Part shown: positions 11,478-47,991 of the stretch, in pieces
Layout: every line of letters starts with the position of its first letter
Position numbering within the stretch: position 1 is the first letter of the stretch
Assembly: GCA_021234155.1 (NCBI GenBank)
Contig: JAJEKV010000146.1
Location: 1 to 64,000, forward strand
From: Isoetes taiwanensis
Lineage: Eukaryota; Streptophyta; Lycopodiopsida; Isoetales; Isoetaceae
DNA length: 64,000 bases
Reading direction: 5' to 3'
Notes under the pieces: generated by a model
Told to the model about the DNA's origin: nothing
What the model saw: the letters and a program-made list of their open reading frames with translations, nothing else
The model's database searches: none
Position numbers and translations under genes: made by a program

Positions 11478-11960
11478 GGAGTCGCTTGTTCAAGGGCACG
11501 GGTCGGCTCCACCTAGAGTGGAGAGGACCATGTGTACCCGGGTTCGAAGTCCACTTCCACTATGATCAAATTTTATTTTCCTAGGTTAAGGAGTGGCTTG
11601 TTCAAGGGCACGGTCGGCTCCACCTAGAGTGGAGAGGATCACTTACCCGGGTTCAAGTCGACTTCGACTTGTTATTTGTTAGGTTTAAAATAAAATTGTA
11701 GTGGCTTGTTCAAGGGCACGGTCGGCTCCACCTTGCGTGGAGAGGACCAGATGTACGGGTCCAAGTCCACTTTTCTTCTCATTCTTAGGTAGAGGTGGCT
11801 ACGGCAAGGACATGTCGGCTCCACCGCGAGTGGAGAGGACCAGGTGTTCGGGCCTTAGTTCACGTTCATTGTCAGTTTTAGCTAGAGGTAGCTAGGGCAA
11901 AGACATGGTCGGCTCCACCATGAGTGGAGGGGACTGGATGTTGAGCCCCTAGTCCCACAT
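11478..11960 (+). repeat. Five tandem ~105-bp hairpin units, tRNA-like box
   Basis: Units start near 11480, 11590, 11700, 11795 and 11890. Each contains TTGTTCAAGGGCACGG (or a close variant), then CGGCTCCAC-loop-GTGGAGAGGA, a stem of six base pairs (CTCCAC/GTGGAG) with a 5-nt loop. The first two units then carry CCCGGGTTCGAAGTCC or CCCGGGTTCAAGTCG, close to the tRNA B-box/T-arm consensus GGTTCGANTCC. The last three units have decayed B-like boxes. A tRNA-derived (SINE-like) origin is possible, but no complete cloverleaf is present. I do not call these tRNA genes. Confidence 0.7.
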
Positions 11961-13809: not shown

Positions 13810-14152
13810 TGTTAGTTGTGAGTTCTTGGCATGCACCCTGCAGCAGCAGTCTATGACTGCCGGATGCTACAAAGCTGCCATGCTCATGATCACAAAACAA
13901 GAACAAGACAAAGAAATATGTACAAAGAATGAAGGGGAACGTGGCCAAATGAGGCTCTCCAAATATGAGATCAAACCTAAGTACATCTAAAGAGGCTCCA
14001 GTCTAATAATATAGTGTAGACCGCAAATCTGAGCCCTACATCTAGCTAATCTAAGCCATACACTTAAGTTAACCTAAGCATGCCAAGTGTCAGTCTGCCA
14101 CCACTGACACCTAACATGTGCATGCACAATGTTAACTACTAGGTGGTTAACA
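13810..14152 (-). repeat. LTR (3' copy in element orientation)
   Basis: 343-bp terminal repeat, TG..CA bounded (TGTTAGTTGTGAG to GGTGGTTAACA). It differs from the other copy by a handful of substitutions and short indels, so the insertion is fairly recent. The terminal inverted repeat is TGTTA/TAACA. Confidence 0.85.
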
Positions 14153-16624: not shown

Positions 16625-16960
16625 TGTTAGTTGTGAGTTCTTGGCATGCACCCTGCAGCAGCAGTCTATGACTGCCGGATGCTACAAAGCTGCCATGCTC
16701 ATGATCACAAAACAAGAACAAGACAAAGAAATATGTACAAAGAATGGGAACATGGCCAAATGAGGCTCTCCAAATATGAGATCAAACCTGAGTACATCTG
16801 AAGAGGCTCCAGTCTAATATAGTGTAGACCGCAAATCTGAGCCCTACATCTAGCTAATCTAAGCCATACACTTAAGTTAACCCAAGCATGCCAAGTGTCA
16901 GTCTGCCACCACTGACACCTAACATGTGCATGCACAATGTTAACCACTAGGTGGTTAACA
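16625..16960 (-). repeat. LTR (5' copy in element orientation)
   Basis: 336-bp terminal repeat, direct copy of 13810-14152, followed by the right-hand GCACA duplication. Reading on the minus strand, the primer-binding-site candidate TGGCGTCGTTATGCCGGG starts one base inside the element. Confidence 0.85.
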
Positions 16961-16969
16961 GCACACAAA

Positions 16970-17505
16970 GAATATTCCAGGTGGTGGTGCTTTGCTTAAG
17001 AAATAGCCTCAAGAAAACCTCAAAAAAACCATACTTTCTTAAGAAATAGTTGCATAAAAACTATACCTAGTTATAAATCACACCACTTCAAAAAACCACA
17101 CTTCCTTAAAAAACAGCCACTTAAAAACTACACCTACTTAAAAACCACACCTAAAAAAACTATACTTACTTTAAAAAACAACTACTCAAAAACTACACCT
17201 AGTTATATAAACCACACCTAAAAAAATCATACTTCCTTAAAAATAACTTCTTAAAAACTACACCACTTCAGAAAACCATACTTTATTAAAAAACAACCAC
17301 TTAAACTACACCCGCTTATAAACGACACTTCGAAAAACCATACTCAAAAAACTACACCCACTTATAAACCACACCTCAAAAAACAACACCTCAATTAAAA
17401 AAATCACACCACTTCAAAAAACTATACTTCCTAAAAAAACAACCACTTAAAAACTATACCTCCTTATAAACCACACTTCAAAAAACTATACTTCCATAAG
17501 CCGAC
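16970..17505. repeat. AC-rich minisatellite
   Basis: Degenerate units of about 18-25 bp built from ACTTAAAAACTACACC, TTATAAACCACACCT and CAAAAAACCATACTTCC. The same family reappears at 20615-20815, with 3.1 kb of different sequence between. Confidence 0.85.
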
Positions 17506-20500
17506 ACCAACTGCTTCCGAAGCCATTTGAAGAGCATTTAAGGCAGTTGCTTGAATTCTGTAACTGGTATGATGTATCGCACCACACTCTTGCAGAATTT
17601 CTCTCACGAGCCTGGCAAATGGGAGACGGAATGACCATCTCGATTGCTCTTCCGATACTTCTTAATCTCGCTTTTTAATGCCAGGGGCTTCGTCTTCCGC
17701 TCAGGCCACTACCCTCACCCACCCCAGCATTTGGAGCCTGTTGCTCGGGAGACTCTTAGGCCGCCTCACCCCAAAGACATCTGCCCGTCGTTCCCTACCG
17801 ACTCTTCCGCTGTCTCCCTCCACATTCCAGGTCGCCTTCCCCTTTACGGGTTGGGCCTCCTCCTTTGATTTGAAGGTCCTGCACCTCCACAGGGAGGAAC
17901 AGGGAGGAGTAGGAAAGAGCAAGAAGAGGCGGCTGCCCAATAATTAATCCGGCGTCATATTCGCCCCGGTCTCTCACATTTTCATCCTCGTCTCCGAACC
18001 GAGTGCACCTCCCTACTTACTCGGGGCTGCTTCTCCGTCATTGTCATGCGGATTTCTTTTCCGGGTCTTCGTTAGGCATGGTGGGAGGAGGAGAATCTCT
18101 ATCAGAGACTTGAGTCGATGAAGAAGGCGGACTAATGTAATCACCGCCTTACACCACACGGATGGATCCTTGCATTTTGTTTAGTTCTTGCCATGGCTTC
18201 TCACGGATGGCGCTTTATACTACTTAACACCGACAAAAATAGACAAGCGGCAAGAGATAAATAGTAAAAACAGAAGTTAAAGTAAAATATGATGGTAACG
18301 TTTTTAAATAATTGTACGGAACCCTAAAAAAAAATATCGGACAAAATACGGAACCCTAAAAAACATCGATTTAAAACACAAATAAAAACCGAGATTCAAA
18401 GCACTAGCCCGATAGACAATTTCTTGTTGATCGCGAACTCACTAAACTTTACATTTCCCTCTTGCACAGAACCAACCCTAATGCCATCAATAAAATAATG
18501 GAAGTCGCCATCAATCTCCTCTGTCTCCATTAGCACTCTTAGCTTCGATAATGGCTATTCGCTTTCCATGGTGGCCGTATAAATGACTTCCTCCCTCTCC
18601 ATACTCGAATATCCACCGTGACGGAGTGTCTCATTATGGTCCTCAAACGGCTCCCAAAAAGTTGTGCGACCTCTCTTTTTACGTTTCCTTCGTTCTAGTT
18701 GACAATTAACATTATAAATATTGTTTTGGAAGAAAGTATCCGAACTTAAAGGAGGACTTAACTACGCTGGACCTCTGTTAGTTGACCGGATGATTCGTGG
18801 AATCGAACATCAGTCGGAACCAAAAATAAGCCATCCACAAAATCTAGGGGGGAGAAAGCACGATATGTCTTTGAGCTTTTGAACTTCCTGCGCCATCCGG
18901 AATATGTTAGCAAATACCTCAAGCGGTGTGAAGATTTTGAAACTCATCCCCACGCCTCCGTTTTCGGACATTCCGCTTGCACCTCGTCGACCATGCATTT
19001 CTTCATTGCAATTACATTGTTCTCATTAGTCGTGGCTTACAAAGTTCACTTAAAGGGGCAATTCAACCGCCTCAAGCTTCGGTTTCCACGGCCTTTACGT
19101 TATAATCATGTCCGTAAAACCGGATGCCTATACCCCGCAAGGTCACGGCATCCATACCTTGAAAAGGACAATTCCGATGTCTATGTGATACACGACAAGT
19201 ACACTACTAATACTTTTCGGTAGGAATGACATCCACGACGTCGATAAACATAAACCTCGCACAATAAATTTGTTTGTAAACACGTGTCAACGAAAGAAAT
19301 GAAAAGATAAGAAGATCACACGACGCCGAAACTATCTCTCTACGATTAAGTAGGCGCTTGACTAGCCCGGCGTCGTGTGATCCATTTAAGGTGGTTACCA
19401 TTTGCGGGCAATTTTGGGAAGTTTTTTGGTGGAGATTAGCTCTTTGGCCATATCGAAGGGGTATATGCATGTCGTATTGTTATACTTTCCACTTTTAGGC
19501 GCTAGAATTCAACTTGAACTCTTTTTATCCTACCTATCCAATGTGTCCGCATCGCCTGATCGCCTTTGTCGCTTAACTCTATGCTCGCCCTCGTTGATGG
19601 CGGCATACTCACCCACGAACCTATTGAGACAAAACCTCCCACTTCTTGACCTTGGGAGTTCTCGTAAATGGGGCAAGAACACGAAATTAAGGGAGACATG
19701 GATTGCGATGAGGAGTGAAGGCGAGAGGATGCACGAGAGGCCGGAGTGACAATACTGAAGTTTGGCGCCAAAATTTGACAAGGGAGTTGGTGACGCCGAC
19801 AAGAGGGCGGTCAAAGTCACCATTATTTTTTGGCGACTCCTCGAAAAATACGGGCCATTAAAATGGTTGCAATAAAAGCACTGTGCATCCCCTATGAAAA
19901 TACGCCATGTGGATGCCAAGTAAGCCTGCTCATCCTTCTACCTGCCAAGTAATACTGACTTTCGTAAAAAAGGCGCAAACCTGATTGGTCCTGGCGAATC
20001 TGACGTGGAAATCTTTAGCCCAAGATAAGGGCCATTTTCAGACCCCAAATCCGCCCTAATGTAAATTTAAAATACCCAGCGTATAAAATACCCCCACACT
20101 CTAATATCATATAACATAAGATTTTGTAAAATGGAGGCTGAATTTCCAAAACAAAGCAATCCTAATAAACTACACCCCAAACCTTAAAAAAGTTAGTCAG
20201 GAGTCTTGCTCCATACCAAACCTCCCTTGATTCGAAGAGGATTATAGGTATTTTAAACATAAAAAAATATATTTGTTGATCAAGCTCGTCTCACCATCTA
20301 ATAGTTTTGGTACTGTGGTTGCACCTTTTATAGTTGTAAATTTGTACTGAGCATCTTAATGTATGAGCTTGATTATGTAAGGTACTTAAAAATTTTGCCC
20401 AACTAATGTATTCAAGTATTGATAGTTTGAAGGAAAAAGATTGTAGATTTCTTTCAAATGTTGATAGCCTGAAGCGGTCCATATAAGAGTTGTGTAAATA

Positions 20501-20815: not shown

Positions 20816-21463
20816 TATAACCACATGTAGATTTTTTGGAACAATGACATGTGGTCTTTTTATTACTGTTGTTTTTAGGTGTGGACCCAGAATTGGGGTG
20901 GTAGTGATTAATTGGGAATTAATGAGGCTATCTAGATACATCAATTACTGAGGCTTTCAGGGTCACTACCCCCCTTCCCAATACACAGGAGTGCGCATAG
21001 AATAGAACATCATCATCCATAGAACTGAAACATAGAATAACATCTAATCTATTTACCTAAACATACGTGGTTAGGTTCCTTTGTTCGGGATTGTGATCTC
21101 AGAATCTATAAGGCCTCTAAGGCTGGACTAACATGATAAACCAGCTCATTGCCAGACTAAAAGTTGGCATTGCACAACAGAATTGCTGTTTACCTAAACC
21201 TTGGCTTGCTCCAGCTCCTCTGAATGCGCACATGCTTTTGTTCAAGGCAAAGGCGACCGAATCTTTAAGATCTGTTGTGTAAAGCCGGCTTGGCAGCGTC
21301 TGGCAATGCGAAATAGCAGCTTAGCTTAGCCGGAATGGCTCTTGGAAGTTGGAATGTGAAAAGGGCAAAGGTTTAGGGTTTCCCCTTTTGTTCCTTTTAC
21401 ATGACCTTTTAGGGTTAGGGTTGAAAGGTCATGTGGGGTTTTGCCATGTGGCAAAGGGGTTAA

Positions 21464-23713: not shown

Positions 23714-25390
23714 TGGACGTTCAAAGGCCGATTATCGCCCCGGGACGATACCGCATCGCCTGCCACGCCGCGTACCACGCCACTCGGTGGCGGTACGCGC
23801 TAGCGTGTAGCCAGGTGAGTAGCCCTAGGGAGCAACTTGCCAGAAATATGTGCAACAATTAATGTGCACATTTTCCAAGGTACCCATTAATGTGGGCACA
23901 CATTTCCAAGTGGACACTTCATGCCAAGTGGGCCACACCCATAGGTGCAATTAATGTGCACATTTTCCAATGTACACATTAATGTGGGCACACATTTCCA
24001 TGTGTGCACATTTGGCCACCTAGCCCTTAATGGCAAGTGGGCCCATTTCCAATTATCCCACATGCCAAAAGGGGATAATTGGAAACCCTAGCCAACCCCC
24101 TTGTCTATATAGGGTAGGAAACCCTAACTAGCCCAATTTTCGATTTTAGGGCTTTAGAACTCTGTTTTGGCTGCCTCAACAGCCAAAACCGCATCCCAGA
24201 CTCTGCCTGGGAGAATTGCATCCTTAGTTCCTCTAGATTCGAGCGTTTCAGCAGGATGGTCGAGCTCAGGTCAGGAGGAGCCCCTCAAGGATCAGGTATT
24301 TGGCCAATTAGATAGTCTAAACCTTATTTTAGTCCTAGAATCAGTAGGTTTAGCCTATTAGATTACCCATAGCAGCCCTTTAGATCTCTAGATAGCAGAT
24401 CCTAACTAAAGAACCTAACTCTATGTTGTAGATTAGATCTAGTTCTTTAGTTCTCTGTGAAGTATATGGATGATGCATCTCTATGAACTCCTTGTATTGG
24501 GAAGGGGGTAGAGACCTAACGCCGTGTAGTTGATGCTCCTAGAGTAGCCTCTCTAGCGCCTTTGTAGATTCGGCTGTGGCACAAGAGCCACACCGGGATG
24601 TGGGTGAAGGGGGGGACCGGGCCGAGGAAGAAGGAGGTTCATGTCGACTCTTGAACGGTTCCTCCGGTGTGTAAGGCCTAGGGAACCATTGTGGCTAGGT
24701 CCAATGGCTTGCCAGCTGCGTGCGGGCAAGGCATGGGCTCGACACCCGTGGGGTGGTGTTCACCTTCCAAGTGGGTTCGGGTCGAATCACACGGGAAGTG
24801 GCCCTCTAGCCACCTTGAGTCAGCATGTAGATCTCTCGAGGGAGTGATCCCTACACCCCCCATCGAATGGGAAGATGAGCCAGGAGTAGCCCTCTTGGCT
24901 ATGCATCCCGTGAGGGCTACGTCGTCCCGGACACTTTTTCGCACCACTCGCAAAGTGTGCACGGGAGGGGCGGATGGAGTGGACAACCCTAAGCCATGCT
25001 CATATGCCCGGCCAAATCCATTGCCATGAATTACATGCCCGAATGAACTCACGGAGACCCAAGCCGTCGGTCATCCCTTGAGTCCGAGCCTTGGGTAGGA
25101 TTCCCTATGTGATGTCGATCCTTGTCTATGCAGATATGTGGAGGACCATCCTTCGTGATGGTCATATGATGTTGATGTATGTACTCGCGACATGTATGTT
25201 TACGCTTCCGGCAGCTAGGTAGGCCCCGAGGGAGGCGGGGTGCAATGACCCTTCCACTCTTCCCTTTGGAACCCGTCACGCGTTGCGGTGTCATGTGGAG
25301 GGCCTCAGATAGCTTGAGGGAGCTGGTATGGGGATGAACTCCTGTTTGTATACGGTGAGTGCATCATTATCACGAGTGGGGGGGCGTCCA
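23714..25390 (+). repeat. 5' LTR of the chromovirus
   Basis: About 1.68 kb, near-identical to 52061-53714. The 5' end is TGGACGT (one base short of TGTGACGT in the other LTR) and the 3' end is GCGTCCA (ACGTCACA in the other). The U3 has an internal duplication of AATTAATGTGCACATTTTCCA (23858 and 23950) and of a TTAATGTGGGCACACATTTCC block. GTCTATATAGGGTAGGAAAC at about 24103 is the likely TATA box. Differences from the 3' LTR are mostly short indels at CpG-containing sites. Confidence 0.9.
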
Positions 25391-25393
25391 CGG

Positions 25394-25412
25394 TGGTATC
25401 GAGCTATGTTCT
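25394..25412 (+). other. Primer-binding site, initiator Met tRNA type
   Basis: TGGTATCGAGCTATGTTC starts 3 bases after the LTR. It matches the common plant PBS TGGTATCAGAGC except for one missing A, so first-strand synthesis would be primed by initiator tRNA-Met. Confidence 0.75.
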
Positions 25413-25590: not shown

Positions 25591-25650
25591 GTGGTCTCAC
25601 CGCCGCCGCCGGTGACGATTTCTACATTCTAGAAACGGGTTTGGTAACGC
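25591..25650. promoter_or_regulatory. Palindromic module 1 (upstream of block A)
   Basis: GGTCTCACCG, then GATTTCTACATTCTAGAAAC, then GGTAACGC. It is a less perfect copy of the module seen best at 27470-27533: outer GTCTCAC/GTGAGAC arms around an inner GATTTCTA/TAGAAATC palindrome. Confidence 0.6.
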
Positions 25651-25780
25651 ATCTAGACATTCAATTTTGACACAAAAAAAAAAAGTTGTAAATTACGGTA
25701 AAATACCTTGATAATTCTAAATTTAAGCTAAGAATTAGTAGATTTAGCATGTTACATGTTAATTTAATAGTGGGCCCCAC

Positions 25781-25850
25781 CATGTCTCACCACGTCATAC
25801 GCCAGAGGGTTTCTAGATTCTAGGAATCGGGCTGGGCGCAACGGTGAGAC
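25781..25850. promoter_or_regulatory. Palindromic module 2 (upstream of block A)
   Basis: ATGTCTCACCACG, then TTTCTAGATTCTAGGAATCGG, then CAACGGTGAGACC. The outer arms GTCTCACC and GGTGAGAC are perfect inverted repeats. It lies 75 bp before the TATA box of block A. Confidence 0.65.
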
Positions 25851-25921
25851 CTTGCTTAATTAGGTGTTTTTAGGTGCTCTAGACAACCCAAAAGGTAGTT
25901 TAAAAGTAGACCTAAAATTGG

Positions 25922-25932
25922 CCCTATAAATA
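25922..25932 (+). promoter_or_regulatory. TATA box of block A
   Basis: CCCTATAAATAGAAC matches the plant TATA consensus TATAAATA. It is 75 bp after palindromic module 2 and about 45 bp before the first plausible transcript sequence. Module pair plus TATA is repeated at 27.46-27.92 kb. Confidence 0.6.
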
Positions 25933-25974: not shown

Positions 25975-27335
25975 ATTTCGTGTTGTCAAGGCGATCTTCC
26001 GGGCGCTTAGCTCCGATCGACAAACCGTAAGATGATGGCCGCCTGGAAGCGGTGCAAGGAAGCCTAGCCGAAGTGGATCCTCGGCGCGGGGGCTTCCGGC
26101 CTCTTTTCCGCGGGATAGCCGGGGAGCGCCTTCTCCATAGCGGCGAATCTTAGCCGTCAAGTGAGGAAGCGCGGTCCGGGGCCAGGAGGCGACCACCACG
26201 AGAAATCTTGGAGGGCGGCCGGCCCGGGGCGTCATGAGCGAGATCCTCGACGAAATTACCTGGCGAGGGCGAAGCCAGGCGGCCGGGAGCAACACGGGGG
26301 CGCCAACCCGCGAGGGAGGCGAGGAGAAGGTGGCGGACCCATCAACAGCCCAGAACAACCCGGGGCTGAGATCCACTGCGGGGAGGAGCAGGAAGAGAGG
26401 AGCATCAGCCGCGGAACTCACCCCGGAAGAAGAGGCCGACCTCGCCGCCCCGTCCACAATCACGAAGCCAAGGGCCCGGCCGGGAGCGAAGGACAAAGAG
26501 TCGGGAAGAGCGGCCCTCTTCTGACCCCGGACCCAAGAAGAGGAGGGCCAAAGCCGAAGGCGTGCAAGAGGAAGCCGGTAAAGGTCTGAAGGAAATAGCG
26601 GGCCACCGCCATCAACGAGCCATCTGAGGGGAGACCCAGCCCACCACCGACGACTTCTGGATGGAGACTACGCGGCGCGGGCGCAGACGGGCAAGCTCTT
26701 CAAAGCCCCTGGGCCAGAGGAAGAGGTCCCGTGAGCGACACGCCCAAGAACAGGAGGAGGCCGGGCGGTTTGGCATGGCCCCCACCATTTCCGACGTGGG
26801 ATAGGGTCAAGACCCCACCGAAACGAGGGTATATATGTGATAGACCCCTAAAGGTCTATCGAAGAGGATCGTGGAGCACAACGCCAGATATGGCAAAGTG
26901 GGAGGCCTACAATGCCTATTACCGGGAGCACCGGTGAGAACGATTGAAGGCGGACACCGACGAAGAGCCAGCGCTGAAGCCCCTCCACCAAAGCCCAAGC
27001 CTCCCCGAAAGCACCGTGGAAGAAGCGAACAAGAAGAAGAAGCTGGAAGACAGGGCACTCAAGGAGATCCGCCACTTCGGAAGAGTTACGGACTCGATTC
27101 CCGGGCGCTCCGTTCGGTCCTTTGGTCCGCTGGGTCATCCAAGAATACAACACGCATACGCGCCGCGGACCGATGAGAGATCCGCTTAGCTACGTGAGGG
27201 CGAAGCGCATATAGTAAAGCATTTTGAAGATTCAACTACCTGCACGCGGTGCACGCCAAGAGGGTTACCCTCATGAGGCGGGATATGTATCTTGCTGGGC
27301 ACATCAAGGAGAACGCCCTTGAACCTTGTAAATAA
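25975..27335 (+). CDS. Element-borne protein ending in a histone H3 fold
   Basis: The last ~95 codons are a divergent histone H3 core. In order: RALKEIRHFGRVTDSIP (H3 alpha-N, ALREIRKYQ type; 27052-27102), APFGPLVRWVIQEYN (alpha-1, LPFQRLVREIAQDF type; 27107-27151), EGEAHIVKHFED (end of alpha-2; 27196-27231) and FNYLHAVHAKRVTLMRRDMY then LAGHIKE (L2-alpha-3; 27231-27311), with stop at 27333-27335. The HAKRVT signature, FED and the spacing are those of H3. Three single-base frame changes (near 27104, 27190, 27231) separate these parts as read. The start was not fixed. The upstream frames are rich in Arg, Lys, Glu, Ala and Pro with several more shifts. Histone H3 packages DNA with H4; here packaging or marking element DNA is only a guess. 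AATAAAG follows at 27376. Confidence 0.7.
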
Positions 27336-27460: not shown

Positions 27461-27538
27461 AGGCGATGTCTCACACGTCGCGCCGGGACAGATTTCTACA
27501 TTTTAGAAATCGGGCTGGGCTAACGCGATGTGAGACCA
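27461..27538. promoter_or_regulatory. Palindromic module 3 (upstream of block B)
   Basis: GATGTCTCACACGTCGCGCC, then GATTTCTACATTTTAGAAATC (perfect 8-bp arms, 5-nt centre), then GGGCTGGGCTAACGCGATGTGAGACC. The outer GTCTCACA/TGTGAGAC arms are perfect. This is the cleanest copy. Confidence 0.7.
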
Positions 27539-27660
27539 TGCCCAAAAATGCCCAAAACAGCTCCAAATCGACCAAGTAAGGGGTCAGTGCGCCTCGATGA
27601 GTTTAGTGGAATTACGACCTTAGATCACCTAAATTGAGTAATCCTAGCCCAATTAGGACC

Positions 27661-27730
27661 TATGTCTCATACGTCGGCCAGATGATTTCTACATTTTAGA
27701 AATCGGGCTCATTTTTAACGCGGTGAGACC
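27661..27730. promoter_or_regulatory. Palindromic module 4 (upstream of block B)
   Basis: TATGTCTCATACGTCGGCC, then GATTTCTACATTTTAGAAATC, then CGGGCT..AACGCGGTGAGACC. The inner palindrome is identical to module 3. It lies about 178 bp before the block B TATA box. Confidence 0.7.
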
Positions 27731-27905: not shown

Positions 27906-27917
27906 TTCTATAAATAA
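27906..27917 (+). promoter_or_regulatory. TATA box of block B
   Basis: TTTCTATAAATAAGTCCCCC, the same TATAAATA core as block A, again downstream of a module pair. Confidence 0.6.
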
Positions 27918-28029
27918 GTCCCCCATTTCTCAATTGGCACCCTGCAAAATTGCTCCCCACTGCTTAGGCGATCTTTCAGCTCCCTGAGGCGCTCGCATCC
28001 GTTTGATACTCCCTTCTTTGCTAGATCAA

Positions 28030-29539
28030 TGGCTATCGCTGATTTGCGATGATGGCAGGCCATGTTATCGATTGAGGCAGGATGTCAACGACATCTTCCA
28101 AGTCTTTGTGAAAGAAATCGACATCCAAGTTACGCTTAAATGCAACCCCGGCTTATAGGCAGATGTGCTAGCAGAATTTCAAGCTAGGGTAGGACCCTCC
28201 CTTGTTCAAGTTCCCCCTTGCATAGGATACTTTGTTCCCCGCCCATCCCTTCAAGCAGCCTTGGGCGATGTCCCCAACATCGCCAAGTACTTGACTAACA
28301 AGGCGCAGAGACTACCTGATTACATGGTCCTGACAGCCAACAGGACCAAGTACTTCTCTTACACCGCCGCCCTAGCCATCTTCTTATCCCACCGCGCCGA
28401 GAACCCGATGGGGGCAACCTCTATCCCTCCGATGGAGGTAGACCCCATAGCAGTGCAAGAGGAAGAGCAGATGCTGTTGCAGTATCAACAGGAACAGGAA
28501 GCAAGAGAGGATGAAGAGGAGTCGGACGACGAAGGATACACGGAGCTCGACTCGCATTTAAGAACGGGCGCCAAGGAGAGCAGGAGCTGATCAATTTCGA
28601 AAGCAGAGAGGGCATCGAGTTGCTCCCCCTTTCTGGCTAGGCATCACAAGCCTAGCCCCTATCATCATCGACGAGAGGAGTATCTACTCCTCACCGACAT
28701 CCGTAACCTTCCCAATGCGGAGAGGGAGCTCAGGTTGGACGAATCGCTTCCACCCAGCCGCGGGGCAGACCGACATGGACGACTTCATCGTCCGGGAACC
28801 TCGACTTCCGCTTCAAGTGAGGGAGTCCGACACCTACATGGGGAGACGACCTCTCCCGATATCCAGGCCTACGCTAAAGATCGGGCAATTGATGGACTGG
28901 CGGGAGTCGCCAACGAGGAGGAGTTCCTCGCCCTCCAAGAACAGATGGGGATCCGTGGGAAGACCACGAGCATCCTAATGCCGGGTCCTTCGATATCACC
29001 CCGCCAAAAGGAGAAGGAATCGACCTCGTGAGGCTCGACCGCGACAATTGAAGACTACGTGGGAGCTCACCGGGTTGAGGTCGACGAGTACGGGCGCACG
29101 TAGCCGAGGCCAAACAAGCGAGGAGAAGCTTCGGGCGACACCAACGACAGGTCGCCGATACTACTTGCCTGGCCGATGGATGGGAGAATAGCGGTAATTC
29201 ACCGCAAGTTCAGTCCCGCAGGCTAAGAAGGAGTGTTTATGCCGATTGCACTCAAGGCTTGGCAGCATGCTCGAATAGCAACAAATGTCGATTATCTTCG
29301 TCTTAGTCAAGAGGTCAATGGCACTCGACCTCTTCGACTTCGCCATCCCCCACCGACGTCAGGCGAGATTAGCAGTGACTGCGGCCCTTACATCCGACCG
29401 CAGGGTAGAAGACCTGGTGAGAGCCATCCAGGGAGGCTCGTCAGCAAGCATCATCAGGAACTTGGGTCACTCGGTAGGGACGGCCCAAGTTAAGAAGTTT
29501 CTTGAAGACAACCCGTCTTACCGGCGATTTCAAGACTAG
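28030..29539 (+). CDS. Unidentified element-borne gene (block B), frameshifted
   Basis: A chain of open frames with CpG-associated shifts: about 28075-28160 (DVNDIFQVFVKEIDI), 28165-28590 (LAEFQARVGPSLVQVPP.., DVPNIAKYLTNKAQRLPDYM, then an acidic EEEQ/DEEESDDE stretch), 28680-29031 (EEYLLLTDIRNLPNAERELR; IDGLAGVANEEEFLALQEQM) and 29285-29539 (RRVEDLVRAIQGGSSASIIR to FQD and stop). The head has its own TATA box and palindromic modules, like block A, so the two are probably sister units. I do not recognise the product. The C-terminal segment IPHRRQARLAV..VEDLVRAI has the look of a histone-fold third helix, but this is weak. Start codon not determined. Confidence 0.4.
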
Positions 29540-29705: not shown

Positions 29706-30620
29706 TTGCTTGTGTATGCAGCCAGAGGCCTAAACGCAGGGGAACGACAACTGCGAGACCTTATAGAAGAACAAACCCCGCCCAGACCACCCCCGGCAAG
29801 AAACCTATTTGAAGATAGGGAACCCATGACCCCAGAGGAGGAGATAGCCCAGATGAGGACAGACCTGGAGCAGATAAAGGCATTACTGTCCGCGCAAGCA
29901 GGAGTGGGTTCGGTGGGCAATGCTCAGTTGCCGCAAGCATCAGCTCGGAGGGAAGGAAGGGACAAGAAGAGGAGCAAGAGAAGGAGATCCCCCAGTCCGG
30001 AATCTTCCGACTCAAGTTCAGACTCAGACTCCGACTCTGAGGAAGAGGAAGAACAGGCTCAGGAACGAACAGATGGAAGGCAGAGGAACACCCCAGAGGG
30101 ACGACAAAGAGATACCAGGGCCTCTGACTACCAGAAGAAGGTAGATTCCGCACTGGGCAATGTATGGAAGGCCCGGAAACTAGAACAGTTCTCAGGGGAG
30201 AGGCATGAAGGATAAGGACAAAGGCAGAGTTGCAACAGCCAACTTGAAAGGAGCCGCTCGGATTTGGTGGAAGGGTTATGCAAAGGCACACGGCTTAAGC
30301 GAGGGGATGCTTGTAAGTTCGAGAAAGTTTGCTAAAGCCTTCAAAGCGCCATTACGTTCCAAGGGAACATAAGTCCAAAGATGATGCAAAATAGTTTTGA
30401 GGTTGCGGCAAGGCAACAAATCAGTTCAGAAATATACGAGAGGAATTCATGAGGCTAAAATTTCGTATGTGCGGGTTGGGAGAGAAGCATGCGGTGGAAA
30501 GCTATATCGAGAAATTTGAATGAGGAGATCCGCAAGCTTGTGAGAGCAATAAACCCTAGGACGGTGATCGAAGGCGGAATCCAAGGCTATAAGCTTGCGG
30601 GGTCCGGGACCTCAGAATAG
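29706..30620 (+). pseudogene. gag: Chromovirus gag (Retrotrans_gag), broken
   Basis: The N-terminal part (29706-30215) is charged, with a coiled-coil-like MTPEEEIAQMRTDLEQIKAL and a Ser/Asp/Glu stretch. A change of frame then gives ATANLKGAARIWWKGYAKAH (about 30228-30290), the A.L.G.A..WW core of the retrotransposon gag family, followed by SSRKFAKAF, REFMRLKF and YIEKFE-like pieces to about 30520. About 30850-30900 has a possible degraded zinc knuckle (KAVCF..KRCFQPAI). Gag forms the particle that packages the RNA. It starts 4.3 kb after the PBS, far more than normal, because of blocks A and B. Confidence 0.65.
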
Positions 30621-31019
30621 CGGGCACAAGCAGCCCAGTACTTCGGGATAAAGGCAAGGCGACAGAAGCTATAGCCCCAGGGGCAGCGATCCAGGTCCGG
30701 CTAGAGCCCCATATGGTGGGAACCAGGGGAAGCGGCAGGAGAAGAAGCGGTGTCCTTCAAGGACAAGGGAGAGGTCAAACTACTCCAAAGCAAATTGCAA
30801 TCCTTTTGCAAAGCGATGCCCAAGGAAAAGAGGCAGGAGTCGCGAGAAAAGCGGTGTGCTTCTGTAAAAGGTGCTTCCAGCCAGCCATAGGGGGCAAACC
30901 GTCCCTTTACGCCATGAGTGCGGCTCTAGCGGAGTTGGGAGATTGGGGCGCGCCCTATCGGACGACGACGGCGAAGAGGCCCGCGACTACATCCAGGGTG
31001 AGTGTCACATCTTTGCCGC

Positions 31020-31288
31020 AATAGATACAGAGCAAGCAGAGAGCCAGTATAAGGTAATTTCCACAGTAGGGAAGGCTAAAGCTAAGTCCTTCATAGTCTT
31101 GATAGACTCAGGAAGTAGCCATAACTTTGCATCCCCCAGAATGGTTCAAATGTTGAAGTTGAAGCCGCTAAAGTCAAAGCCAAGACCCGTTGTTTTAGCA
31201 AGTGGTGCAGTAAGGCAGACGGAGGGCAAGAGAATTAACTTCGACATCGACTTGCCAGGGATTAATATCCAGATGGGGGCAGAAGTAA
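31020..31288 (+). pseudogene. pol: Chromovirus aspartic protease, cut by the CACTA insertion
   Basis: YKVISTVGKAKAKSFIVLID then SGSSHNFASPRMVQMLKLKP: IDSGSSHNF is the D-S/T-G catalytic loop of retropepsin-like proteases in plant gypsy elements. The frame runs to codon GTA at 31285-31287 and the CACTA terminus follows. Removing the CACTA and one TAA duplication restores the frame into YDLIIGMEYLGPAGAIIDC at 48028, the usual C-terminal half (LGMDWL type). The protease matures gag-pol. Confidence 0.85.
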
Positions 31289-31306
31289 CACAAGGCCCCC
31301 AAAATT
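31289..31306. repeat. CACTA left terminal inverted repeat
   Basis: CACAAGGCCCCCAAAATT, preceded by TAA. The following 800 bp (to about 32100) is AT-rich without gene signal and would hold transposase subterminal sites. Confidence 0.95.
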
Positions 31307-32144
31307 GAATTAGTATGATCTTTTTCTAATGATTTCATAGTAAAAACCAACTCCTAAAATCAATACCGGTATGTGGGCCAAAAAGTTTACAAATCATGTC
31401 TAGTTATACTATATAGTTCATCAATGCAGTTTAGTAACATGACATAAGAATAGTGTTTCTTCACATGGTATTGAAAGATGATAATTTATAGCTAGTTTTT
31501 GTGACAACTTGAATATATGATATGTGCTACTACTTAATTTATCACGTTTATCGGAATGATATTTGATCACATCTATTATCCTTGGTTTATTAACATTATA
31601 ATTTTATGCGTGTAATTAGTATGATATTTTACAACGATTAATCATCTTTGTTATTTTAGTGTATAATTATAGTGACTAATTATCAATAAAACTATGCTTG
31701 GTTTAGATATACCAGTATGATTTTGCTTCCACGATAATGTGAAAAACTAGTGTGTTTTTTTTTTCATGATATCAGCCTTACTGTGCTTCATGTGGCAAGT
31801 TTGATAATACGATTAGAGACCATAGTATTCAACCTTCATGTTTGAGCGTAATAAAATTTGAGGGTTCAGGTTCATGATTTTTTTACATGGTTCTAAATTG
31901 TGATATCTCCTAATTAATTGGTATATTTCAGCATATGGTTCATTTGAGCATTTTTATTTTATTTTTCCTTTTTTTTAATCTAAATTTGCTTATTATCGGT
32001 ATTTTGATTACAAAAGGGAAGCGTACAGAAGACCAAGATGCTGAAGTTTTTTTTCCATTGAATTTTGTCATCAGAGTACATTGAGGTCCTTCGCCTAGTA
32101 GTTAGGAACACATGTGACAGCGCAGACCATTAGTTTGTTTTGAT

Positions 32145-32580
32145 TGTCTTAATTTGCGCATTGTCCCTAGTCACATTGTACATGTAACCCACTTCTTCAA
32201 GAGTCTTAGACCTGCCACCAGCCAGACCAAATCGATGCCGTATAATCTCTCGCTTCCGGGGTTTTTAAAGTGTGCAAAACCTTGTCCACATCTTCTTTTA
32301 GCCACAATGCACTGGTAACTTTCTCAGTACATTCAGAAGTCTCATCTGCAAGTATCTCCTGCAATGTCAAGGCTATCAGCATCTGTTTAATAGCAGTTGA
32401 ATCAAACAGGATACAAGCTTACCGTAAAGGTTGTAGTGCCATCACCAATTAAAATGAAATGAAGCAGGCAACAAAAATAAAACTTTTCTTCCCTGCCCAT
32501 AATTTCTGCTGAAGAACAGTTCGCTCAATGGTCCCTGCAACTCTTGCCCATTTTTTCATTCTCTCCAATTTAAGGAGATC
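32145..32580 (-). pseudogene. Captured plastid sigma-70 factor fragment (SIG)
   Basis: Exon piece 32580-32494 encodes DLLKLERMKK joined to WARVAGTIERTVLQQKLWAG, i.e. a region 1.2/2.1 start with the usual intervening residues missing. After an intron (acceptor TTGCAG at 32359) comes EILADETSECTEKVTSALWL then KEDVDKVLHTLKTPEAR (region 3.2-4.1) and, one frame over, RFGLAGGRSKTLEEVGYMYN and VTRDN (region 4.2, where V-[ST]-R-E-R-I-R-Q is expected). Regions 2.2-3.1 are absent and the helix-turn-helix ends abruptly. Nucleus-encoded sigma factors direct the plastid RNA polymerase; this copy cannot. It lies wholly inside the CACTA element, with intron retained, which indicates capture from genomic DNA. 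Confidence 0.8.
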
Positions 32581-32646
32581 CTGCATTGACAAATAACATG
32601 ATGCAATGCAAACATGCGCAGAGCCAACTAATGCACGGAACAGGGA

Positions 32647-32721
32647 TAAGCGCTAAATCTGTTTGGCTTCCAACACTAGCACCAATTGCTCCAGCTGTTA
32701 GACCACACAGTGCCTTTGACC
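32647..32721 (-). pseudogene. Captured mitochondrial carrier (DTC) exon, AGAIGASVGS part
   Basis: SKALCGLTAGAIGASVGSQT then DLALI is the second-repeat start of the plant mitochondrial dicarboxylate/tricarboxylate carrier, where the family has KALCGLTAGAIGASVGSPAD. The P-x-D of the carrier signature is changed to QTD, so it would be non-functional. Downstream on the minus strand the carrier sequence breaks off, then the sigma-factor piece starts about 65 bp on. Confidence 0.85.
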
Positions 32722-32901
32722 TTAAACTGATTGTGGCTGCTTGTCTACTTGGCATTTTATCTCACCACAAAGTTTGTCTCAGTCGAGGAGAGTGCATTCA
32801 TTTGGACACAAAGTAATTTCATTGATGCTATGCCCCAAAATTGTAGATTAACTTGCCAAATTTCCTAACCTAGTTTTAAATGGCAATAGGTTATATCTTA
32901 C

Positions 32902-33022
32902 CTTGAACAGAAGCCTGGAACGTTCTTTAATATGATGTTGCAGCTAAAACACCCATAGTTACCCGAGAGCCACTTATTTTGACATTTCCGGACTTGAATA
33001 TTGAGATAGTTGGCATGTCCTT
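32902..33022 (-). pseudogene. Unidentified exon-like fragment
   Basis: Flanked by a good acceptor (CTGTTTGCAG) and donor (AAG/GTAAGATA) on the minus strand. One frame gives GKDMPTISIFKSGNVKISGS followed by RVTMGVLAATSY and a stop; another is open throughout. The SIFkSGnVkISGSr pattern faintly recalls a TATA-binding-protein repeat, but I cannot identify it. It lies between two DTC exons. Confidence 0.35.
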
Positions 33023-33156
33023 GCCCTGCAAACAGTCATATAGGGTTCTGATTAAGAATAATGGAAATTTCTCTGCCTTTTAAGCACGTAATTAGAATTA
33101 TCAATAACTAATACACCCAGTTTAACAAACATGATGTGTTCATCCAACAAAAGATG

Positions 33157-33211
33157 GTACAAAGGCAGTGGTCTGCCATCATTTGCTGCAGTGGCCTTAG
33201 CTGTCAAGAGC
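33157..33211 (-). pseudogene. Captured DTC exon, LLTAKATAANDGRPLPLY part
   Basis: Acceptor TTGCAG at 33212, then codons for LLTAKATAANDGRPLPLY, matching the carrier segment VLTNKAIEANDGKPLPLY. Its phase fits exactly with the DTC exon ending at 34155 (shared Arg codon AG|G), showing that both came from one gene with this intron position. The RGLG exons now lie between them. Confidence 0.85.
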
Positions 33212-33506
33212 CTGCAAGGAGTTCCACAATTTTCTGTTACTCCAAAAACATTTCTAACTGCCAAATGCTCGGCTACATTAAAAGCAGCTTATCTGTCAGC
33301 TATGAGCAAACTTGATATATTCGTGTGCAGATAAAATGAAATACAATGTTGCTGTACAGGGCATGGAAACTTTTTCAATCATAAACACTAGCTCAATGAT
33401 CAACTTTGGGCTATGTACAAAAGTGCAAATTACAAAGGTATTGTACAACATACCATGGAATGGATGGTTAAAATTTCATATGGTGGAAAGTTCCCTTGTT
33501 TGGAAA

Positions 33507-34010
33507 TCAATAAAGACGTATTCTCGTTTTGATCCTTTGGCGACATATTGGACAATTTTGCAAGCCGTCGCCACAATCCCTACAGGTCTGTTACAGACAG
33601 AAGTGCATTAAATAAAAATCAAGACTATCGTGTAGCGAACAAATCATAGCCCCACCTGATGGCCACAGCCAAATGCCATATCTTTTCTTGATGACATACA
33701 GACTGGACACATCTGAAGCACAGGTACAAATTATCAGCCCCAAACTTAATCTTAATTTTCTGCTAAAAGAAATGCAAATACCTGTCCTTCGGCTTGAGAG
33801 TGTACAGGTGCAGAGGGAGATCGAGAGCCAGCAGAATAATAACTATGTGAATCGAATTGTGGAGACCGTGCATACCGTGAGGCCGCTTCATCCGCCTCCA
33901 GAACAGCTTGTGGTGGCAGAAGAGGGGAGTTCACATTTCGAAATTGATGTCTCTGACTCCTTAAACCAGAAGAAAACATTGCTGCTTTGTGAGTAATAAT
34001 GCATTTAGAT
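33507..34010 (-). pseudogene. Captured RGLG-type RING E3 ligase, last three exons
   Basis: Exons 34010-33782, 33712-33656 and 33587-33507, with perfect GT-AG introns of 69 and 68 nt. The first codes for a Ser/Pro/Tyr-rich linker (PPQAVLEADEAASRYARSPQ); the second for MCPVCMSSRKDMAFGCGHQ; the third for TCRDCGDGLQNCPICRQRIK and ending RIRLY-stop. Together the last two are a complete C3HC4-type RING as in copine-like RGLG ubiquitin ligases (family: CPICL..KDMAFGCGHQTC..C...CPICR). The N-terminal vWA/copine domain is absent. All cysteines and the histidine are present, so a truncated RING protein could fold if expressed. The 5' acceptor is in phase with the DTC donor upstream. Confidence 0.88.
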
Positions 34011-34154
34011 CTGCAATACTGTGTTCCTTTACACACATTTTATGTTCCTGCTTTAAATTCCTTAGAAAGCTAATTATTCAAAAGGCTAGATGCCTCATGA
34101 AAATTGAGTCCATGCTTTAAGTATGTAAAAAAAAATCAATATTAATAATGTTAC

Positions 34155-34216
34155 CTAAATGATCCAAGTCTCGCAGTCATGTATGTTGCTTGCCTCAGCA
34201 GACCAGCAGACAAACC
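34155..34216 (-). pseudogene. Captured DTC exon, GLSAGLLRQATY part
   Basis: Acceptor TTTTAG, then GLSAGLLRQATYMTARLGSF and donor TTTAG/GTAACA. This is the conserved end of the first carrier repeat (family: GLSAGLLRQATYTTARLGSFR). No earlier DTC exon (MNGG..ATCVIQPIDM) is present upstream. Splicing to the next acceptor at 34010 would give an in-frame DTC-RGLG fusion. Confidence 0.88.
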
Positions 34217-34476
34217 CTAAAACAGTTGAAATAGCATAAACAATATTAACTATAAGAATGATTTGCAATGCCCATGATATTTACAGCCAAATTAAGAACT
34301 CAAACTGAACAGTCTTTATTCAATCCACTTAGTGAGCCATACAAAAGGGTGCTTTCTCCCATCTGCAGAAAGCTTTGGGTCTACAAGCGCCAAAATAACA
34401 AGAGAGGTCCATAGCATGCCTCTAGTAGCATTAAATCATCCGCAATTAACAGGAAAAAAGTAAGGAGAAGCAAAGC

Positions 34477-36640
34477 CTAACTAGCAGCAAGTTTCAACGT
34501 GGTCCGATCAAAAGTACGAGATGTCCATCCCTCCTTAGTAACCTCCACGATCTTTGTCTTAATGCAGGCCATAGCAAATTGCTTATACAAATCTGACCCT
34601 TTAGCTTTGGACTTAGCAAGAGCAAGAAATAAATTGTTGTTTTCTCGTTTGGAGTTGCTGCAGAAATTTAGGATCTCGAAAGGTGTAACCTCGTCCAATC
34701 TTTCTTTCCCCAATGCAACTAAACACACATTTTTATGTATTGCATACCCTAGTGAGGCAAAATCCTTTAAAGCTTGGCCTTTGATAACCTGCGCAATACA
34801 AAATTCAAGAATAATCATAAAAAACAGCTCAAACAACTAAAATTAAAGTACAACGCACATTACCTGCATCTTAGAGTCATGAATAATCTTGTTGGCTTCA
34901 GATTCTGTGAGAGGAGAAAGGCGATTGATTGGCCAACGTATGAACCATGCCCTCATGTCACTTCCCAAGTCTCCAAATGTGTCTACTCCAGCACATGGTG
35001 GATATGGCAGTGCGACCTCACCACAATCCTCATCCACAACTTGCACGTTTAAAGAGACATTGTCATCGCCAATCAATACACCATGGATAAGGCCTTCTGG
35101 ATCCACGCGATGGATTTTTCCCACTCCCATTGGTGTCCCATCCGTCACCAAAGATACAAACTGATTGTCGTGATAATTTGTGTCCTTCAAACACCAAAAA
35201 AGACAAACTTATTTTTGTTATTATTTAAAGAGCAAATCAATTGAAATATACCTCATTAAGAACATGTCGAGACAGCCATCCTGAATCCACGCTTCCATCA
35301 CTTTGTCGTTTTCTACCACATCGCGTTGGCGCTGGTGTGTCCTTTTCTGCATCATCATCAGACTCATCATCTTCCACACAAGAAAGTCTTTTATCAAGTG
35401 TTGAACGAGTCATGCATTCTGGCCACGATAATTCGTCCTACATAACAAAGACAACCAAGAAAAGGAATTAATGGAAGACAATAACAGCATATAAAATAAA
35501 CAAGTGGCAACTTATGGAATGCAAAAAAATACATGTACCCCTATTGACAGTCCTTCAATCTTCTTTTTTGCGTATACATGGTCCTTTTCAAAAGGGAGGC
35601 ACACATGAGCCATGTTAGCACCAAGACTTGAAATTTTAACAGTTAAGAGCTCATAGTCATTATTATCAACTTTGCCAATAACCTCAGCAGCCCCAATCAC
35701 GAATTCTTTATCATAGAAAAATGAAGGGCGTTGATAACCTGCAGATAAAAGTTTATTAAAAAATGACAGATCTGTCCTATCCAATGTCAGGGATGACGCG
35801 ACCAAGGAAACATGATCATCTTCTTCATAATTCCTAGGGAACTTGTTCTCCCTTAGTCTTAATCGTCTTTTTGCACCTGCAAGAAGTGAGTTAACTGTCT
35901 CCCTAACGAACCGTTCTGGGACTGGATAGGTCACGTTTGGCCAACATATTGGCTTTAAAGATCCATCCGCCATCAAACGGTCCACTAACTTGTCCCTCTT
36001 CTTTATCCATTTATTATTTCTGGTAGATATCCTCTTGAATTCTGGCAATGTAAAGTTTGGAAAAGCAGATGAAGTAGCAGCTCGAATTGCTCTATGATTT
36101 TCCATCATCAAAATCCATTGTGCATGATGTCCCGTTTTCTTCAAAGCTAATCTACCATTCTTTTCTCGATCCCCTACTCAAAGGCGTAAAACCAGCCCCG
36201 CGCATTTGGAATTGTATCGGCCGCATTTGTCCAAATTGCTCCATTATATGGCTGGTGTGCTTTTTATTTCTTTTTCCATCCGGACTTAAACTTGATGAAC
36301 AGATGGTCTTTGAATGATCGCCAGATGGTTCACCTCTAGAAGTAGAAATAGAAAAAATACCTTCATTGTTTGAAACAACTTGGGACTTGATTTCATCCCA
36401 TAAAGGCAACAATTCCAAAGAAACTATTCCAATCACGAGCCCCAACCGCCAATCGATGACTCCAAGTTGAGGAACGAAATCCCAAATATATGATTTTCGT
36501 TGATGCTACGCTCAATCTGTTCAGCAACAGAAGGAAATCTTTTAGCAATATAACAAGCAACCTGAGATGGCTCCCACTTAGATACTTCTGCCATGAACGA
36601 CACTTGTTCAACCATGTTTATGTTTGTGAGAAAACAGAAC
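34477..36640 (-). CDS. CACTA-borne spliced gene with DUF8039-like domain
   Basis: The last four exons join in phase with clean GT-AG introns: 36144(approx.)-35539, 35437-35252, 35184-34864 and 34788-34477 (stop). The third carries the segment QFVSLVTDGTPMGVGKIHRV.. LIHGVLIGDDNVSLNVQVVD.. RAWFIRWPINRL, the layout of the plant DUF8039 domain, which is common beside tnp2 transposases. The second exon is Asp/Glu/Ser/Lys-rich (VEDDESDDDAEKD). Upstream frames (36640-36155) give VSKWEPSQVACYIAKRFPSV.. and, one frame over, DWRLGLVIGIVSLELLPLWD, a SAM-like helical domain with one apparent shift. The short join near 36150 is uncertain. It is probably the element's accessory (TnpA-position) protein, DNA binding by inference. 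Strand is opposite to the transposase. Confidence 0.6.
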
Positions 36641-36699
36641 GAAAATAGGAAGGAGAATAACATACCTTATATGATCACAGACGGTATCCGTTGAAGAGC

Positions 36700-37490
36700 T
36701 GCAAAACAATTCCGCCGTCATATTTTATCTTGGCAGAGGCGTTTCTCCATACCGGATGCCTCAAAAATTTATTTCTGTTGTTATTTCGATGATTTCTGTT
36801 GTTACTTCGAACTTAGTCGAACTTAGGTTTAGAGAGCCTACGAAACAATGGTAGGTTTTGCCAAAAGAAAAAAAAAAAAATTTACACGTCTCCAGATTTC
36901 TTGGAGTATATTTCTGTTGTAATTGTACATTGAGGTCATCACATGTTGTTATAGTGGCAATAATATAGTTGTAAGCAGTTGCCAATATGCCGAGAATTTA
37001 AAGCTTCACAGATCGAGCTGCATTATTACAGTTCAATATCACTTGAGAATGCAGTTGAAAGACCTAGTATACTATGTGGGTCTTAATATATGACCATTGC
37101 ATATATTTGTTAATGGTTGTAAACGGTCGAGACATTTGAGATGAAATTCCTTTATTATCGAGGAGGTTACGGCTTAAACTGTGAAGGAAACAGCCAAAAC
37201 CATAACCGACGGACGACATAACAGTCATAAACCAAACTGTATAATAGTTGATCAACACGAAACATAAAATAACAGATTGAAGAATGATGTAGAGGAGCGA
37301 AGATCATCACCAAATCAAGGGATTTGGGTCAGTGCTGTCGAAGTAAAATATAAAAGCAAACAATGAGTTCAATGGTTTCTATAGTTTGCACTAAATGGTC
37401 TACTTTGTTTTAAGCTTATAGATAAGCATAACACCTTGTTGCATAAGTGAAGTAGAGAAAATTGCATCAACTAATAATAATATCTAGTTG
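36700..37490. other. AT-rich spacer without gene
   Basis: Between the head of the DUF8039-like gene and the degenerate repeats. Probably includes that gene's promoter on the minus strand; no domain-bearing frame seen. Confidence 0.6.
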
Positions 37491-37915
37491 ATCATTTCTA
37501 AATTCAACAATTTCTACTAAGTGCATTAATCCTGGAATTTTATTAAGGGAACCATAGTCTACTTCAAAATTCATTGTTCACGTTAATCCTTGAGTTTTAT
37601 TAAGGGAACCATAGTGTACTTCAAAATTCATTGTTCAGATGTTATTAGATGTTTTTAGAGGCAAAAGGGCTTTTCATGGGCTAAAGGTTCAACAACTTGC
37701 AAACATATCAAATTCAATGGCATTTATGCTTACAAGCAAATGCACAATCAACACCTATTTCTTGGAGTATATTTCTACTAAGACAATTAAAAATCCTGGA
37801 GTTTTATTAAGACAATCATAGTCTACTTCAAAATTCATTGTTTAGATGTTACTAGATGGTTTTAGAGGCAAAAGGGCTTTTATGGACTAAAGGTTCAACA
37901 ACTTGCAAACCAAGG
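37490..37915. repeat. Degenerate direct repeats
   Basis: The phrase CTACTTCAAAATTCATTGTT recurs at about 37559, 37617 (GTACTTC..) and 37811, and GATGTTA(T/C)TAGATG followed by TTTTAGAGGCAAAAGGGCTT recurs at 37637 and 37846, each followed by AAAGGTTCAACAACTTGCAAAC. The spacings are 58 and about 195-210 bp. Confidence 0.8.
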
Positions 37916-37929
37916 AAATTGGTTGCTTC

Positions 37930-40695: not shown

Positions 40696-41086
40696 TGAAA
40701 TTAATTCTGTCTATGGCTGCAAATTATATCTGTGGAAATTAGTTCTGTCTATGTCTATGGAAGTTAAATACTGCAGACTTATGGCTGTCTATACAAGCAA
40801 TACAGATATAGGAGAATTAAATCTATTAACATATTATGATGTGCACTAGACAATGATGCGCCTACTTGTGAAGATTGCATTAAAGCAAGCAATGTTGTTG
40901 CAATCTTTTTATTAGCTTTCTCCAATTCTTTCCTTTGTTCTAGTGGCGTCATGCATTACATCATGTATTGTTAGATCCCAATACAATACATGATCCAATA
41001 AATGTTCTGGAGTAGTGCAGAGTGATGGTTGTCTGGATGAAGCAATAGATTAATAAGAAATTTGATTTTGTTTACGAATTATGATG

Positions 41087-41098
41087 TACTATATATAC
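41087..41098 (+). promoter_or_regulatory. TATA box of the transposase gene
   Basis: GTACTATATATACAGAGGC lies about 55 bp before the transposase ATG at 41148. A short out-of-frame ATGATG (41124) precedes that ATG. Confidence 0.5.
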
Positions 41099-41147
41099 AG
41101 AGGCATTTAAGATTCTTTGCAATGATGGCAGGTCACAGAGAGCAAGA

Positions 41148-44841: not shown

Positions 44842-44862
44842 ATGTTTGGCTAGTGTACCTGC

Positions 44863-45870: not shown

Positions 45871-45874
45871 GTGT

Positions 45875-47990: not shown

Positions 47991-47991
47991 T

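Follow-up and report, generated by a model that had tools for sequence, protein, structure and literature searches.

A Ty3/gypsy chromodomain retrotransposon family of Isoetes taiwanensis with a candidate histone H3 of its own

The window analysed here is a 64,000-nucleotide stretch of Isoetes taiwanensis DNA (assembly GCA_021234155.1, contig JAJEKV010000146.1, positions 1 to 64,000, forward strand). A 13.3-kb Ty3/gypsy element spans positions 23,714–53,714 of this window and is split by a 16.7-kb CACTA-like insertion. The following features belong to the element or are histone-like sequences:

17,470–18,193, minus strand: second, independent H3-like remnant, which starts with MARTKQ and runs from alpha-N to alpha-2 (score 101; E 3.7e-8)
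23,714–25,392, plus strand: 5' LTR, starting with TGGACGTT and preceded by ATGGG; 89–90% match to the 3' LTR
25,394–25,404, plus strand: primer binding site (PBS)-like TGGTATCGAGC, a pattern match that follows the 5' LTR
25,594–25,851, plus strand: two promoter-region modules, GTCTCAC...palindromic core...GTGAGAC, upstream of ORF1; the right end of the first is degraded
25,925–25,932, plus strand: TATA box upstream of ORF1, in the same place in L014 and L024
26,031–27,335, plus strand: ORF1 remnant, a charged N-terminal part followed by an H3-like domain; frames broken, the homologue in L014 being an open frame of 366 codons
27,055–27,335, plus strand: histone H3-like block, alpha-N to C-terminus, with its stop at 27,333–27,335
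27,468–27,730, plus strand: two further GTCTCAC...GTGAGAC-type modules, upstream of ORF2; the left end of the second is GTCTCAT
27,909–27,916, plus strand: TATA box upstream of ORF2
28,029–29,539, plus strand: ORF2 remnant; DNA matches of 69% (L014) and 75% (L024) over most of its length
29,706–31,288, plus strand: gag and the first part of protease (score 712 against L035 gag-pol)
31,289–48,010, plus strand: nested CACTA-like DNA transposon; it carries a tnp2-like ORF, its TIR is CACAAGGCCCCCAAAA and the duplicated target reads TAA
48,011–51,173, plus strand: rest of protease, RT, RNase H, integrase and chromodomain region; frames broken (scores 987 and 2084 against L035 pol)
52,048–52,060, plus strand: polypurine tract AAGGTGGGGAGAA, adjoining the start of the 3' LTR
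52,061–53,714, plus strand: 3' LTR, TGTGACGT...ACGTCACA, followed by ATGGC

The CACTA-like insert measures 16,722 bp, has matching TIRs and lies in the protease gene, whose two flanks continue in one frame; without it the element is 13,276 bp long. The right end of the 5' LTR was placed by comparison with L035, and four of the five bases of the target duplication, ATGG(G/C), agree. The PBS-like TGGTATCGAGC, which also occurs in L024 and L060, is one base shorter than the PBS TGGTATCAGAGC of L014, L034, L035 and L061; we take this site to be initiator-Met-tRNA-like.

Two units occupy the space between the PBS and gag: ORF1, which includes the H3 block, and then ORF2. Each has its own TATA box and modules of the GTCTCAC...GTGAGAC type. 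The modules start at 25,594, 25,784, 27,468 and 27,664 and are also present in L014 and L024. Their ends and the palindromic core are kept, and the letters of the core vary among copies (TTTCTA..TAGAAA, ATTTTGAG..CTCAAAAT, CAAAACT..AGTTTTTG), as if the inverted repeat counted more than its letters. The ORF2 remnant is possibly a relative of the ORF2 of L033, L034 and L061: its frameshift-tolerant score against L034 ORF2 was 69, compared with at most 60 for reversed ORF2 and up to 78 for other reversed proteins, and an ORF2 profile gave a sole match, in L014, at E 0.11.

The two LTRs (23,744–25,382 versus 52,094–53,706) differ by 81 transitions, 73 transversions and 35 gap events, and these differences are six times denser near CG than elsewhere (0.279 versus 0.046 per column). 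This clustering is weaker in the L035 LTR pair (0.180 versus 0.075). With respect to the broken frames of the window copy, the pattern fits assembly error at methylated sites, without proving it.

Outside the element, a tandem repeat of about 1.1 kb fills approximately positions 1–10,000 and recurs in L003, L016 and L019 of the same genome. Two direct repeats (13,810–14,152 and 16,625–16,960) that are 96.5% alike and about 2.8 kb apart probably represent a small LTR element. A piece of an OPT oligopeptide transporter gene at 60,086–61,060 (PF03169, E 2.5e-73) is likely a host gene, and the open frames upstream of it, from 57,917, look like its start.

A first-pass annotation made from the sequence alone had proposed that an H3-fold protein lies between the PBS and gag of an LTR retrotransposon, citing four peptides, and had suggested that this protein might package or mark the chromatin of the element or work with its chromodomain. 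Both the peptides and the placement stood up. ALKEIRHFGRV and EGEAHIVKHFED are in frame from 25,975, PFGPLVRWVIQEY is in frame from 25,976, and HAVHAKRVTLMRRDMYLAGHI, in frame from 25,977, closes at the stop at 27,333–27,335, so that the three plus-strand frames keep H3 order and spacing; the PBS-like TGGTATCGAGC lies at 25,394 and gag begins at about 29.7 kb. When the H3 core was aligned to the whole 64-kb window with tolerance for frameshifts, positions 27,055–27,308 gave the top plus-strand match with a score of 110, compared with a mean of 40.8 (sd 4.1; maximum 57) for 60 shuffled H3 queries. Full-length H3 scored 116 at the block, and reversed sequence did not exceed 58. Taken by itself, the C-terminal piece matched solved chains of CENH3 and H3 (best E 3e-4 against the PDB); among 2,644 six-frame pieces it also matched an H3 profile built for this analysis, at E 2.2e-5. 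The first piece, which contains alpha-N, had no histone match by itself. Since the block reaches only 18.8 and 20.1 bits against Pfam PF00125, below the curated cut-off of 26.4, this copy by itself shows a relic, and since its ORF1 frame is broken several times it cannot make the protein. Neither the H3 block nor the module pattern nor the N-terminal domain had a relative in the viral_contigs database.

The second H3-like remnant, on the minus strand, has a long tail, and its C-terminus is replaced by a GT-rich minisatellite. As an element-LTR-like fragment lies upstream of it (20,924–21,162, minus strand), this remnant may belong to another histone-carrying element lineage. Searches near it on the minus strand revealed neither a PBS pattern nor any match to ORF2 or gag-pol that exceeded the controls.

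Further copies of the subfamily to which the window element belongs, termed subfamily A, were sought in 20 sampled 10-kb stretches and one 2-kb stretch of the same genome. These yielded a second copy (L014) and one LTR (L011 with L023) that is the 3' end of a third, the 5' part of which is L024. The first-pass annotation had regarded confinement to a single copy as a sign that the block was spurious; it is clear in L024 (score 84–86), present as traces in L014, and open in the related elements described below. L014 has the PBS TGGTATCAGAGC and an open frame of 366 codons that spans the charged portion of ORF1 and reaches ALREI. Beyond ALREI there is a weak likeness to alpha-N through alpha-2, with a score of 45 that falls inside the shuffled range, and the H3 sequence from about residue 98 onwards is missing. 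Since the window copy is broken and the H3 of L014 is reduced to traces, subfamily A may be dead.

We then turned to the histone family across the window's own genome (1.658 Gb, 1,110 contigs), where a search gave 8,705 first-look candidates, a number that is not a gene count, of which the best 150 were scored. Fifteen of the 150 were host-like H3 (at least 164.1 bits), and the eight of these that were fetched are canonical MARTKQTARKS proteins. The other 135 scored matches, from the same 8,705 candidates, were not host-like; they lie on 70 contigs and scored 144.5–154.7 bits. Fifty-five of them sit in open frames of at least 300 codons and 36 in frames of at least 400, measured from stop to stop, and an internal stop was seen in five. 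Twenty-six of the 135 were fetched, hand-picked for long frames or for spread rather than drawn at random. All 26 contain a retro-type H3 core, with a stop inside the core in one (L059).

A tree was built from these 26 retro cores together with two distinct host cores and three outside rows; in it the retro cores form lineages B (14 cores), D (7), C (4) and E (one core, L057). An open ORF1 runs to about 400–460 codons. It begins with an N-terminal domain specific to the elements, some 200 residues long, which a linker of variable make-up joins to the H3 at the C-terminus. The Pfam histone scores of L034 and L033, 147 and 149 bits, compare with the cut-off of 26.4, and H3 is the top match, for L034 also against the PDB. 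A PBS followed by ORF1-H3 was found in L034 and L035 (lineage B), L061 (C) and L060 (D); in L033, also of lineage B, the PBS pattern had no match. The N-terminal domain is common to lineages B, C and D (34–39% identity; E 4e-32 to 9e-42), and those of L033 and L034 had no Pfam match at E 0.1. ORF2, whole or in pieces, follows ORF1 and precedes gag or the end of the stretch in L033, L034, L060 and L061, and L035 is without it. Downstream of ORF2 there is a third, similar coding piece (PPEQDYGQRYGEYPE...) in L033 (5767–6141), L060 (5113–5724) and L061 (5442–5936).

L035, taken together with L036, is a complete element of 11.2 kb, with LTRs at 315–1998 and 9727–11483 and the target site duplication CAATC on both sides. 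The PBS and ORF1-H3 are followed by gag, protease, RT, RNase H, integrase and chromodomain, all six identified by Pfam, and its gag-pol is in one frame except for one stop codon. The possibility, raised in the first-pass annotation, that the histone sequence came with an unrelated insertion is not borne out here, as the H3 of L035 lies inside one LTR-to-LTR unit bounded by a 5-bp target duplication. When the N-terminal domain was used as the query in the same genome, 2,912 first-look candidates were obtained and the best 150 scored; at least 47 of these 150 are followed on the same strand, no more than 2 kb downstream, by a scored H3. Among the matches listed, no other arrangement occurred for domain and H3 pairs within 3 kb.

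Three lineage B pairs (dS 0.34–0.57) gave H3-core dN/dS values of 0.064, 0.081 and 0.050, with 0.11–0.22 for the N-terminal domain and 0.13–0.19 for the linker and tail. Single pairs gave 0.155 for ORF2 and 0.086 for gag. The pairs compared thus show purifying selection, and an H3 both encoded by the elements and under selection is almost certain. Host H3 pairs that have amino-acid differences gave 0.005–0.020, which means weaker constraint on the H3 of the elements than on that of the host. Such data bear directly on the idea that host H3 pseudogenes came to lie in one element by chance and have no function for it. The broken window copy and the abundance of host H3 genes (15 host-like matches among the 150 scored) would agree with chance capture, but several sublineages carry H3 at the same position, the element domain and H3 occur in the same order at no fewer than 47 loci, dN/dS is 0.05–0.08, and 36 of the 135 non-host matches lie in frames of 400 codons or more. 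On these grounds we regard this idea as refuted and give it next to no credence.

Synonymous distance between element and host H3 is saturated, and capture was therefore not recent. One capture is favoured, though not proven, by the common residues I89 and A107, by the N-terminal domain that lineages B, C and D share and by the common position in the element; the deciding branch of the tree for a single origin has support of 77/0, on a short domain. Subfamily A may go back to this capture or to another: its H3 is far diverged, and its N-terminal part has no similarity to the domain of the open lineages (blastp E 2.8; no profile match).

The 26 fetched cores are identical to host H3 at 78–86 of 97 positions. 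R49, K56, R69, R72, R83, K115, R116, T118, C110, H113, D123, L126, R129 and I130 are unchanged in every one of them, and departures elsewhere in what we take to be the residues for DNA contact and the H3-H3 bundle are few: R42 is K in seven, R63 differs in two and K53 differs in one. K64 is R in 14 and K122 is R in one. Conversely, the host residue is absent from all 26 cores at positions 86, 87, 89, 105, 107 and 135, with I89 and A107 in every core. If alpha-2 is assumed to comprise residues 85–114, all five such sites before residue 134 fall within it (P 0.0025, treating positions as equal, which histone positions are not). L90 is kept. The recognition site reads FAIL in lineages B and C and HAIL in D and E, compared with SAVL or TAVL in the fetched host H3s.

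The tail of the element H3 is less readily compared with that of the host. H3 forms the C-terminus of a fusion and its tail is rearranged, so it does not have the free N-terminal tail, with K4, K9, K27 and K36 in canonical context, of an ordinary H3. Residue 36 is R in 20 and K in six of the 26 cores if the tail is aligned gap-free from the core, and a motif like (A/T)(R/K/Q)HPxT(G/A)GK lies near the core in lineages B, D and E. We considered a clean loss of K9 and K27, which would give an unsilenceable tail, and rejected it: most readable tails of lineages C and D keep RKSG about 55 residues upstream. As this makes the tail alignment ambiguous, loss of K9 is not claimed.

The cores also speak to whether ORF1 could be a histone of the CENH3 type, one that would direct the element to centromeres. 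This was hinted at by the window copy, in which ALKEIRHF and VTLMR-D resemble Arabidopsis CENH3 (score 95 versus 110 for H3) and the best PDB matches of the C-terminal piece are CENH3 chains. It was not borne out in the other lineages: all 26 fetched cores, from lineages B to E, are canonical-H3-like, without an insertion or a longer loop 1, and the 135 non-host matches are spread over 70 contigs. We consider a centromeric histone very unlikely.

Conservation of the DNA-contact residues would also be expected if ORF1 were a packaging or structural protein, whose H3 binds the element's own cDNA, alone or together with H4, inside the particle or the pre-integration complex, and whose N-terminal domain assembles the particle. 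ORF1 is conserved and encoded upstream of gag, and the histones of marseilleviruses, which infection requires, gather in viral factories rather than in the nucleus (PMC9145170). However, the pairing and tetramer surfaces of the element H3 are conserved at host level, which would be superfluous for a plain DNA binder, and H4, H2A and H2B queries found nothing clearly above reversed-query controls in the window (best 52 versus 49). A packaging role seems unlikely to us.

The clustering of fixed differences in alpha-2 suggests another function, that of a decoy or adaptor which binds host H3-H4 chaperones through the altered helix for nuclear entry or for steering integration, with no need for stable nucleosomes. 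Positions 86, 87, 89, 105 and 107 all lie in the helix of the chaperone-recognition site (PMC9145170), and L035 has a chromodomain. Since the DNA-contact and tetramer residues are likewise conserved, which argues against such a role, we judge it quite improbable.

Taken together, these data make it reasonably likely that the block in the window is the decayed ORF1 of a large Ty3/gypsy chromodomain family that encodes its own histone H3, and that this H3 joins host nucleosomes. Entry into nucleosomes, as read from the conserved surfaces, is itself probable. Confidence in these readings is unaffected by the state of L014, as it rests on lineages other than A. In the proposed mechanism, the H3 of ORF1 would pair with host H4 and be assembled into nucleosomes by an altered deposition route, and the fused element domain would thereby become fixed on chromatin, either on the element's DNA or wherever the histone is deposited. 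The alpha-2 site of histones sets the assembly pathway (PMC9145170), and in plants residues 87 and 90 are important for incorporating H3.3 (PMC3342937). With L90 retained and changes at 86, 87 and 89, such an H3 could serve as a durable placeholder resembling H3.3. The contacts of DDM1 with H3.3 lie at or close to variant residues, and ectopic H3.3 blocks methylation of transposable elements in ddm1 mutants (PMC10369972). A placeholder nucleosome of this kind might resist the remodelling and H3 exchange by which plants methylate and silence transposons, and we tentatively suggest resistance to silencing as the benefit to the element.

A bolder reading can be formulated, in which a retrotransposon clade ran its own histone variant through several sublineages, formed placeholder nucleosomes on the element's DNA that the host machinery for H3 exchange and DNA methylation cannot process, and bears in V89I, as in the H3s of three unrelated DNA viruses, a mark of histones put to selfish use. 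We hold this to be doubtful. The likeness of V89I to the viral H3s is suggestive, no more, and animal H3.3 also has isoleucine at position 89 (AAIG; PMC9145170).

Hosts silence transposons through histones, and a retrotransposon with its own H3 would counter them with the same material. It would be the retroelement counterpart of the DNA-virus histones. Such an element raises the questions of whether a parasite deposits its own nucleosomes, whether silencing is blocked, and whether this aids multiplication in a 1.66-Gb genome. A caution also follows, in that most scored histone matches in such a genome (135 of 150 here) need not be host genes. Among the literature matches listed, no paper described a retroelement that encodes a histone; most subscription journals and bioRxiv lay outside their coverage, and prior reports may exist. 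The word retrotransposon is absent from the main text of a review of viral histones (PMC9145170).

Plant LTR elements that carry extra ORFs of unknown function include those of the Ogre type. Retrosat2, with its ORF0, is another, and its listed record mentions no histone (PMC3485330). Orchid Ty3/gypsy elements also have an additional regulatory domain in a separate ORF, in that case an m6A RNA demethylase, and the fixation of extra conserved domains has been called a rare event (PMC9289625). Among captured histones, the H4 of bracoviruses is similarly of host origin, has an extended tail and joins host nucleosomes, but it is an H4 encoded by one gene of a wasp-borne polydnavirus rather than by a retroelement (PMC9145170). 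The single H3s of DNA viruses (xenomavirus, DSLPV1, sylvanvirus and phycodnavirus MAGs) are closer: they have a host-like fold, as here, some also have N-terminal extensions, viral single histones are mostly 73–89% identical to those of the host, compared with 78–86 of 97 positions here, and three of the H3s read SAIL or TAIL at the alpha-2 site, where FAIL or HAIL is found here (PMC9145170). Unlike these, the H3 described here is encoded by an LTR retrotransposon, has very many candidate copies and is fused to a 200-residue element domain. The Ty3/gypsy chromoviruses of non-seed plants resemble L035 in their LTRs, gag, protease-RT-RNaseH-IN order and C-terminal chromodomain (PMC2864245); to this plan the elements of I. 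taiwanensis add at least one ORF between the PBS and gag, the first of which ends in a histone H3.
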